DNA from: a virus
Length of the DNA stretch: 26,257 bases
Strand: one strand, 5' to 3'
IMG/VR virus record: IMGVR_UViG_3300042914_001339
Span: 1 to 26,257 of that record
The position numbers and the translations under genes were made by a program. Under the pieces are notes generated by a model, which saw nothing but the letters and a program-made list of their open reading frames with translations, ran no database searches and had not been told where the DNA came from. Of the stretch, positions 4,203 through 7,466 are shown one piece after another. Every line of letters starts with the position of its first letter. Within the stretch, counting starts at the first letter, position 1.

Positions 4203-4807
4203 TTGTTAGCATTCATTTGTTTCATTACATTTTCATATAATTGTTGGTCTAATGATTTGACTTGTGTTTGAATTTTGCTAATATATGGAATAGTATTTAA
4301 TAATGTAGATTTCCAATTTTTAATTTTTATATTCTTATTATTTCTTATTACACTCCAATCATTAACTAACCAACTTTCATATTTTAATTTTACTTCATTC
4401 GTGTTTATGTTAGGCTCTTTACTTAAAGCATATGCTAAAAACTCATCGATAGATGGTATATTAATATCTTTAACATTAACATTATCATTTACATTATCAG
4501 CTATTTTTGCTATAGTAGAAATGCGTTTGCTATCGTTTGCTATATTTTGCCATCGTTTGTTAGCACCTGCTTTACCTGCTTCACTACGTTTTTCTTTAGT
4601 TTCTTCAAACTTTACTAAATCACGTTTCAATTGTTGCTTGATTGGTGTAAATGCAAGATTAATAATTAAATCTTCAGTAATAGGATTTTCATCATTAACA
4701 TAACTAAATATGTGTTTAATTAATTCTCCTGCTTTTTCGTTTGGTAATTGGTCAAATAATGCTTTTTGGTCAGCATATAAGATAAACCCTTTTTTGTCTT
4801 TAGCCAT
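4199..4807 (-). CDS. DUF6291-like phage replication protein
   Basis: This 202-aa protein begins MAKDKKGFILYADQKALFDQ, then LPNEKAGELIKHIFSYVNDE, the signature I know as DUF6291, common in Bacteroidota phages beside a DnaB-like ATPase. The first 75 residues look like a winged-helix-type DNA-binding domain. A basic linker (KRSEAGKAGANKRW, about 73-86) resembles the linker of phage replication initiators. The C-terminal part (about 115-175) has the SIDEFLAYALSKE and KLKYESWLVNDW pattern seen in DnaD/replisome-organiser tails. It probably recognises the origin and recruits the downstream ATPase. Its start lies 10 nt after the U-tract of a structured RNA (4818-4910), so expression may depend on read-through. 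The role is inferred from family and position. Confidence 0.78.
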   Translation of the reverse strand: MAKDKKGFILYADQKALFDQLPNEKAGELIKHIFSYVNDENPITEDLIINLAFTPIKQQLKRDLVKFEETKEKRSEAGKAGANKRWQNIANDSKRISTIAKIADNVNDNVNVKDINIPSIDEFLAYALSKEPNINTNEVKLKYESWLVNDWSVIRNNKNIKIKNWKSTLLNTIPYISKIQTQVKSLDQQLYENVMKQMNANK

Positions 4808-4817
4808 AATATGTCAT

Positions 4818-4910
4818 AAAAAAAACCCCGTCAAATCCGTAGGCTCTCACTTCTACTTCATTGACAGGGTCAATAACATCTTTAAGTTACATATTGTGAG
4901 AGCGTAACCG
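4818..4910 (-). ncRNA. Structured RNA with complementary hairpin loops and U8 terminator
   Basis: Read on the minus strand from about 4910. The first hairpin has stem GTTAC/GTAAC (4904-4908 with 4886-4890) and a 13-nt loop starting GCTCTCAC (4896-4903). The second is a long hairpin: a 9-bp outer stem CCCTGTCAA/TTGACGGGG (4861-4869 with 4826-4834, one G-U), an inner GTAG/CTAC stem (4853-4856 with 4839-4842), and a 10-nt loop containing GTGAGAGC (4843-4850). The two loops are perfectly complementary over 8 nt. The outer stem is followed directly by eight U residues (4818-4825), an intrinsic terminator. A TATATTTG promoter element lies just upstream. It may be a self-contained small RNA, or a leader controlling the replication gene that starts 10 nt later. 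I do not recognise it as a known riboswitch or ribozyme. Confidence 0.72.
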
Positions 4911-4914
4911 TATA

Positions 4915-4922
4915 CAAATATA
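4915..4922 (-). promoter_or_regulatory. Bacteroidota -7 promoter element TATATTTG
   Basis: A perfect TAnnTTTG match on the minus strand, immediately after the stop of the 64-aa gene. A start site 5-7 nt downstream would fall at about 4908-4910, where the first hairpin of the structured RNA begins. No clear TTTG -33 element is present upstream, so strength is uncertain. Confidence 0.6.
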
Positions 4923-5313: not shown

Positions 5314-5352
5314 AAAAAATAGGTTTTTTAGAAAATCCACCAAAGAAACCTA
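5314..5352 (-). terminator. Terminator-like hairpin with U6 tail
   Basis: On the minus strand TAGGTTT (5346-5352) pairs with AAACCTA (5320-5326) around a 19-nt loop and is followed by six U residues (5314-5319). The stem is short and A/U-rich and the loop is large, so termination is uncertain. It closes the GC-rich noncoding block that precedes it in the transcript. Confidence 0.4.
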
Positions 5353-5447
5353 CAAAACTTTGCCGACCAACGATTCGGTATCCGAGTGAGCAGTTCTAAC
5401 GGTATGCCCGACAGTGCTTCGTTCCCTTGTACTTTGGGCGTGTATTT
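5353..5447 (-). other. GC-rich noncoding block with repeated CGGTAT element
   Basis: About 95 nt between the SSB-like gene and the 59-aa gene, visibly richer in G+C than the surrounding A+T-rich DNA. On the plus strand CGGTATCCGA (from 5376) and CGGTATGCCCGA (from 5400) are imperfect direct repeats spaced 24 nt apart. Short inverted elements such as TCGG-ATA-CCGA are present on the minus strand. There is no ATG-started gene. It may be a structured RNA, a protein-binding array or part of a replication origin; nothing here decides between these. Confidence 0.4.
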
Positions 5448-5453
5448 TTTAAA

Positions 5454-6644: not shown

Positions 6645-7466
6645 TTAATAACGTAGATTAATTTTATTTCTTGAACGATAATTATAAATATCTTCTATTA
6701 ATGTTTTGTATTGCTCACGATTAGCACAATCAACTAATGCAGTTGGTTGTAATCTTAATTTATGCATAAACTCATTAAAATCAAAATTTTCATTTTTAAA
6801 TAATACAATCATTGTTCCAGTAAATGCCGTTCGATTGTATCCTAAATAGTATGGTTTAACCATTCGTATTTTATTTGCCCAATCTTGAGCCAAATTAAAA
6901 TCTTTACCTTTCCACGTTCCTTCTTCAAAAATTTCAGTCATATTATAAGATTTTTTATCATCAGTTCTTATTTTTTGTTTTGCATCAGAAGAAGATACAC
7001 CTGATAAATTAGAACATAATGCAATGCAATCATTAAAACTATAATCATCATTTTTTATTGAAAAATCACGAAGTTTAATATAAGATTCTATCCCCATATT
7101 AGCGTAACCCTCCATAAAATCTTTTTTAGTCCAATTTTTTTGATTAAGATTAAGAGTGTGAACTTCATTTAAAGAATAGCCATTTACAATAATGTAGTAA
7201 ACAAATGATTCAGCTTCTTTTGAAGCCATTAAACGATGTTGTCCGTCTATTACTTCCATTCGTTCATTTACTAAAATTGGATTACATTTCATTCCATAAA
7301 AACGGATTGAATCTGCCAATCTCCTAACGTGTTGTAAGTTTGGCACTCTGTTTCCATCAATTTGTTTAAAAATTGATAAATCATTTGTTTTGTAAACTTT
7401 GTTTACTTCTTGTCCTTGCACTTGACTACTATACTTCGTCATTGGTGCTGTTGTTGTTCTAAACAT
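6645..7466 (-). CDS. ParB-like N-terminal domain protein
   Basis: A 273-aa protein with a ParB/Srx-like fold. Residues 22-110 match the ParB N-terminal domain: PNLQHVRRLADSIRFYGMKC, a NPILVNERMEVIDGQHRLMA strand-loop with the IDGQHRL signature (73-79), then KEAESFVYYIIVNGYS. A helical C-terminal half follows, without an obvious helix-turn-helix. ParB-fold proteins bind or hydrolyse nucleotides, and phage versions are variously DNA-binding, nuclease or regulatory. It is not paired with a ParA, so plasmid-type partitioning is unlikely. Its place between ERF and the exonuclease suggests a role in recombination or DNA processing, but that is context only. Confidence 0.75.
   Translation of the reverse strand: MFRTTTAPMTKYSSQVQGQEVNKVYKTNDLSIFKQIDGNRVPNLQHVRRLADSIRFYGMKCNPILVNERMEVIDGQHRLMASKEAESFVYYIIVNGYSLNEVHTLNLNQKNWTKKDFMEGYANMGIESYIKLRDFSIKNDDYSFNDCIALCSNLSGVSSSDAKQKIRTDDKKSYNMTEIFEEGTWKGKDFNLAQDWANKIRMVKPYYLGYNRTAFTGTMIVLFKNENFDFNEFMHKLRLQPTALVDCANREQYKTLIEDIYNYRSRNKINLRY

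Follow-up and report, generated by a model that had tools for sequence, protein, structure and literature searches.

A kissing-loop RNA with a predicted promoter and terminator of its own precedes replication genes in many viruses of Bacteroidota

The window, i.e., the whole stretch of 26,257 nucleotides analysed here (IMG/VR virus record IMGVR_UViG_3300042914_001339), carries on its minus strand a DUF6291 gene and a gene for a DnaB/primase-helicase-like ATPase, directly preceded by a predicted RNA of about 95 nt that consists of two hairpins with mutually fitting loops, enclosed between its own putative promoter and terminator (Table 1). The promoter, the hairpins H1 and H2, the U8 tract, and the spacing described in the initial annotation are all present on this strand, and the assignment of the downstream gene as DUF6291-like is borne out by its Pfam match. 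Transcription should start at the base of H1 or just 5' of it. H2 is built in two tiers, with an outer stem of 9 bp (CCCTGTCAA/TTGACGGGG) and an inner stem of 4 bp (GTAG/CTAC) separated by a purine-rich internal loop (UGAA/GGAU), and the U8 tract ends 10 nt before the ATG at position 4807. The minimum free energy fold contains both hairpins (-24.1 kcal/mol, z -2.36; 4 of 200 shuffles are equally good), and the probability that a 13-nt and a 10-nt loop share an 8-nt complement by chance is approximately 3e-4 (18 alignments / 65,536). A word search of the whole window returned no further occurrence of word 1 or word 2.

Table 1. Predicted parts of the RNA and the genes behind it in the window
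Feature	Position	Strand	Basis or remarks
Whole element	4922->4818	-	promoter, H1, A/U-rich linker, two-tier H2, U8, then DUF6291 ATG
Putative Bacteroidota -7 promoter element TATATTTG	4915..4922	-	sequence and conservation in class A relatives
Hairpin H1 (GGTTAC/GTAACT), 13-nt loop	4885..4909	-	sequence, fold, covariation
H1 core stem GTTAC/GTAAC	4908-4904/4890-4886	-	
Loop word 1 GCTCTCAC, starts H1 loop, complement of word 2	4896..4903	-	covariation, mutual information
A/U-rich conserved linker TTAAAGATGTTATTG	4871..4885	-	near-invariant columns in class A alignment
Terminator hairpin H2 (predicted)	4826..4869	-	sequence, fold, covariation
Loop word 2 GTGAGAGC, within 10-nt H2 apical loop AAGTGAGAGC	4850-4843	-	sequence, covariation, mutual information
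U8 tract completing predicted intrinsic terminator	4818..4825	-	sequence; U-tract also in relatives
First gene: DUF6291 replication-type protein, 202 aa	4199..4807	-	Pfam PF19808, 83.7 bits; PHROG primosomal protein, 4e-8
Second gene: DnaB/primase-helicase-like ATPase, 297 aa	3309..4202	-	PHROG 239 / 18375 primase-helicase, 3e-17 / 2e-16

Inspection began with the sequence preceding 79 DUF6291 loci in viral contigs, and most of these loci display the same layout with very different but mutually matching loop words, such as GTCGCTG/CAGCGAC, GTTGCAG/CTGCAAC, and CCTTCGAC/GTCGAAGG. Because selecting for complementarity had to be avoided, the pattern used to scan viral contigs for this type of element (class A) fixed only linker and terminator bases and left all loop words free. 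Word-blind patterns for class A and for a second type, class B, retrieved at least 120 stretches each from viral contigs, a lower bound on the size of the family. The kissing-loop RNA is present in well over a hundred viruses of Bacteroidota, the contigs being metagenomic and their hosts deduced from the promoter type, the protein relatives, and three named phages that carry the element, namely Tenacibaculum phage Gundel_1 and Cellulophaga phages phi19:3 and phi13:2. Judged by sequence, the two classes share a common architecture and differ in the internal module of the putative terminator. The linker consensus across the family is AAgGaa-TTATT, with an A-rich linker also in class B, in which H2 contains a GAGUA/GAA module (bulged-G, sarcin-ricin-like) and the loops measure 6-8 nt and are nearly all paired. 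The R1 model recovers the element of the window at 4e-20 with no other match in the window, and on 34 records it finds one strong copy in most. Plasmids gave no match to the element, and a blast match in BF486P2 was discarded, as the promoter region alone matches.

The loop-loop contact proposed in the initial annotation for a single 8-nt match is strongly upheld by these relatives. Among the class A matches listed, 83 of the 85 distinct elements with enough upstream sequence to be scored have a complement of at least 7 nt to their own loop upstream, vs 12.6% after exchanging loops among elements whose words differ. In class B, where complementarity was counted by direct parsing because the MAFFT alignment (A3) misaligns H1 and had to be dropped, a complement of at least 6 nt is found in 71 of the 80 distinct matches listed, vs 9.4% upon swapping; the remaining nine lack a loop complement and are regarded as chance matches. 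Perfect loop-loop complementarity of 6-10 nt occurs in some 150 elements among the matches listed, counted as distinct and not phylogenetically independent, with about 50 different words among the matches listed (24 in class A and 28 in class B). Three class B pattern matches (L265, L326, L333) resemble group I intron cores, and a few others with short fortuitous complements were set aside after inspection.

Two pairs of near-identical elements (L049 vs L051 and L118 vs L119) are distinguished almost solely by their loop words (CTCTCAC vs CTTCCAC), which are altered on both sides at once; this hints at recombination or rapid paired change.

Covariation was evaluated on 35 class A sequences (A2), with the structure taken from the window and the first relatives. 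Double-sided changes occur in 24 of the 27 pairs and are distributed over all helices (5/5 in H1, 7/8 in the loop-loop helix, 8/10 in the outer and 4/4 in the inner stem of H2), and the compensatory changes predicted in the initial annotation are thus abundant. Across the same sequences, 95.7% of the cells are paired, vs at most 49% for slid structure controls, and the covariation amounts to 0.689 vs 0.216 in shuffles. Pairing reaches 99.3% in the loop-loop helix, which has no G-U pair, whereas the outer stem of H2 has many. When mutual information is computed for all column pairs, the top 16 are pairs of the proposed fold, with the loop-loop pairs leading, and no competing (antiterminator) helix covaries in class A. 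The top pairs all belong to one fold, which indicates that the selected fold is the predicted terminated one with the two loops paired; the covariation gives no sign of switching between a terminator and an antiterminator helix. Linker length and helix length show no positive correlation, so the geometry gives no added support for an intramolecular contact. The divergence of the words roughly tracks that of the adjacent inner stem. Diversifying selection on the words was accordingly rejected, since their rate of change is not clearly above that of the neighbouring stem; structural drift under pairing fits this pattern, with no clear selection of the immunity type.

The position of the RNA is as regular as its fold. 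In all of the 162 distinct elements scored among the matches listed, a co-directional ORF starts within 60 nt after the U-run, vs 34% of the remaining T-runs on these contigs, at a median distance of 19 nt in class A and 9.5 nt in class B. At the 5' side, a TAnnTTTG element lies 10 nt (modal) upstream of the loop word in 88 of the 89 distinct class A relatives listed, and at a nearly fixed distance in 48 of the 66 class B elements listed (1.7% in control stretches). Together with the U-tract in the relatives, this agrees with the initial proposal of an own promoter and an intrinsic terminator. The usual location is the head of the replication module, with the common order of RNA, optional small or HNH gene, initiator, helicase, and then NinG and a sigma/HTH-like gene; a DnaB/primase-helicase-like gene comes after the initiator in most relatives. 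The initiators behind the RNA comprise DUF6291 proteins and others that fall into one similarity cluster with them, and alternative genes code for a 740-800-aa primase-like protein (one with BT4734-like_N) or a NUMOD4-HNH endonuclease, while in Gundel_1 the RNA precedes an AntA/KilAC antirepressor gene. By genome comparison, the position of the RNA appears to be kept while the downstream genes are swapped. Hence, the originally proposed location upstream of replication genes holds, mostly as the head of the replication module, whereas the tie to DUF6291 does not, and a DUF6291-specific element was rejected because the genes behind the RNA change. The DUF6291 gene also exists without the RNA, as in the Flavobacterium phages Moomin, elemo, and 11b, the Olleya phage Harreka, and the Riemerella phage CRP19.

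Contigs with two elements (L162, L185, L252, L260, L307, L334, and L215) carry different words in them, for instance GAGTCTCA and AATGCAG in L185 or CATCCTAC and GTCGTGG in L252; in L215, both elements belong to class A. A regulon with one common word within the same genome was considered and discarded, as the apparent second matches are the reverse strand of the same element. L215, L125, and L150 harbour an inserted three-gene block (130, 405, and 217 aa) with its own kissing-loop RNA upstream; directly 5' of the initiator, L215 has a second RNA with another word, and L125 and L150 have a candidate with the word GAGCAG. A survey of 395 Bacteroidota genomes with the exact patterns, which miss divergent members, gave three matches (2 + 1), all without a loop complement and attributable to chance; this points to elements mainly of virulent phages and led to the rejection of a prophage immunity element.

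Some members of the family carry what is here called a third copy, a further occurrence of word 1 at the start codon or no more than 11 nt away from it. This involves five words among the matches listed, four in class B (GTTGCAG in 15/15 elements, GTGCAG in 10/11, CAGCAC in 1/1, and GTCGCAG in 1/1) and one in class A (CCTTCGAC in 3/6), and GTCGCAG represents a change from GTTGCAG that is present at all three places. Word 2 was never found near the start codon in the same elements. In class B, 27 of the 71 elements have a third copy, vs 2.1 expected upon permutation; the maximum of 16 in 300 permutations is probably due to the resemblance of GTTGCAG and GTGCAG. The window has no third copy of word 1. 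In the lineages that have one, base pairing between the terminator loop and the start region of the same read-through mRNA would be possible.

In the initial annotation, no described class was put forward for this layout, in agreement with a covariance-model search of Rfam 15, in which neither the window nor 16 class A and B loci contain a member at the gathering score; the best sub-threshold match for the window is RF01691 (16.7 bits vs a cut-off of 31). The kissing-loop leader constitutes a large, apparently undescribed RNA family. RT-14 (RF02921) resembles class B in that an A-rich linker leads into a long hairpin carrying a bulged-G module (AGUA/GAA), but at 29.6 bits class B falls short of the gathering score (48.1), with its 5' half unaligned, and class A and the window have no match. 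The sub-threshold RT-14 match in the class B locus L248 (1027-1135) covers the A-rich linker and the bulged-G hairpin, and RT-14 may deserve re-examination for a hidden loop-loop contact.

Fully complementary hairpin loops of 6-8 nt are found in the rep leader of IncB/IncI-alpha plasmids (ColIb-P9), in RNAI/RNAII, and in TAR/TAR*. In all three, unlike here, the complement is not part of the same molecule: here it does not come from an antisense transcript. The likeness to IncB/IncI-alpha extends, in the third-copy lineages, to a possible pairing of a loop with the start region upstream of a replication gene; the differences are that the kissing loop here is predicted to lie in a terminator, and that the carrier is a phage rather than a plasmid. 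The put RNA of HK022 is likewise a structured RNA directly behind phage early promoters; it is not known to have its own terminator at a gene start or kissing loops, and no Rfam match links it to the present family. The P4 CI leader has complementary repeats seqA-seqB-seqC in the leader of a replication operon, and IsrK is a short terminated RNA that shares one promoter with a read-through mRNA (PMC4825925). Common to P4 CI/c4/IsrK and the kissing-loop RNA are the leader position in a phage operon that encodes replication proteins or an antirepressor, an early stop of transcription (predicted here), and complementary words in one transcript, and, in part of the family only, the A-B'-A order of repeats. 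The differences are that both words here lie in kissing hairpin loops, word 2 in the putative terminator loop itself, and that P4 CI/c4/IsrK belong to temperate phages or satellites, whereas the kissing-loop RNA occurs mainly in virulent phages with words that differ freely between them. As far as Rfam holds models of c4, IsrK, or P4 CI, none matches at the gathering score; membership in these families seems to fail on sequence and on temperate carriage.

We lean, with somewhat more confidence than doubt, towards a cis-acting promoter-proximal attenuator or leader RNA of virulent Bacteroidota phages with the kissing loops as its core. The fold, the loop-loop pairing, the promoter, the terminator, the position, the differing words of co-resident elements, and the third copies are computed features; attenuation, its direction, the translational competition, and any trigger are what we infer. 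From a start at the base of H1, the transcript would first fold H1 as it emerges, and the A/U-rich linker would follow before the terminator hairpin H2 forms. The loops of H1 and H2 would then kiss, locking the leader into one compact fold that ends at the U-tract, where most transcripts would stop as an RNA of about 95 nt, so that the genes behind, usually the replication initiator and the helicase, would be made only by read-through. In the third-copy lineages, the terminator loop of the read-through mRNA may pair with the start site instead and block translation, and H1, in cis or provided in trans by abundant terminated leader, may compete to free the start site. Of the two options of the initial annotation, a small RNA or an attenuator, the second is favoured by the invariable co-directional position before a gene start (162/162), combined with a predicted promoter and terminator. 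The ligand, protein, or antisense partner envisaged there as the thing sensed would be no more than a candidate trigger, and the window has no second site with the words. On the other side, a stable trans-acting sRNA would give identical covariation, a classical riboswitch-type attenuator would need a conserved alternative antiterminator fold, of which no covarying helix is seen, and the third copy is confined to part of the family.

A free-standing phage sRNA, whose product of about 95 nt would target a protein or other RNAs of the phage or host in trans, with the location ahead of the replication genes serving only co-expression, would account for the putative own promoter and terminator, for a conserved fold that corresponds to the terminated state without an alternative, and for the usual single strong copy per contig. 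Such an arrangement before a gene start in every element scored would nevertheless be odd for a trans-acting gene; moreover, two elements in one contig have different words, the words are absent elsewhere in the window, and both loops are consumed in cis with no free seed left, all of which make this explanation rather unlikely. Less probable still is a riboregulator like P4 CI/c4/IsrK, with words 1, 2, and 3 as seqA, seqB, and seqC and a terminated leader that acts in trans on new transcripts of the same operon, sensing how many gene copies are present or whether a phage with a matching word co-infects. The repeat order and the replication-operon leader place are as described for P4 (PMC4825925), the third copies near the start codon and the antirepressor gene in Gundel_1 point the same way, but only some members have a third copy, the element is practically absent from chromosomes and hence from prophages, the words show no sign of selection for diverse specificities, and Rfam gives no c4/isrK match. 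The compact conserved fold right behind early promoters and the unpaired bases that hardly vary (in the linker, the loop tail, and the internal-loop modules) would also suit a put-like element, i.e., a folded leader that binds the RNA polymerase or a phage factor and alters termination here and downstream; this appears very improbable for an RNA that is itself predicted to terminate intrinsically ahead of the gene.

The words vary freely yet always fit and therefore look like an address system, testable by single-base swaps. Tentatively, and with considerable doubt about the joint claim, they may form RNA gates in virulent phages that are modular and word-addressable, in which early operons have their own leader with a private word, the terminated leader acts on its own read-through mRNA, and word 1 and word 3 compete for the terminator loop; if true, phage DNA replication would be under operon-specific gene-dose control without a protein regulator. 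The family sits at the replication switch point in phages whose hosts belong to a dominant bacterial phylum and whose gene control is poorly known; if it is an attenuator, it would supply Bacteroidota genetics with a set of natural RNA gates that is both compact and orthogonal. Because Gundel_1, phi19:3, and phi13:2 are isolated together with host strains, the question is accessible to ordinary RNA mapping.

Elsewhere in the window, a G+C-richer intergenic stretch (5345-5453) separates a 74-aa ORF from an ssb-like gene and has at its end, on the plus strand and opposite to all surrounding genes, a terminator-like hairpin with T6; its folding is modest (z -1.86 on the plus and 0.05 on the minus strand), and it has no match in any other locus fetched. 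A ParB-like/GmrSD_N-like protein (6645-7466; PHROG 12305, 2e-30) adjoins an Erf annealing protein and a RecE-like exonuclease. Lastly, a 177-aa protein (789-1322) with weak sigma-factor/UPF0122 HTH similarity is a candidate phage-encoded transcription factor, and a gene of similar size (cluster 4) often closes the replication module in relatives.
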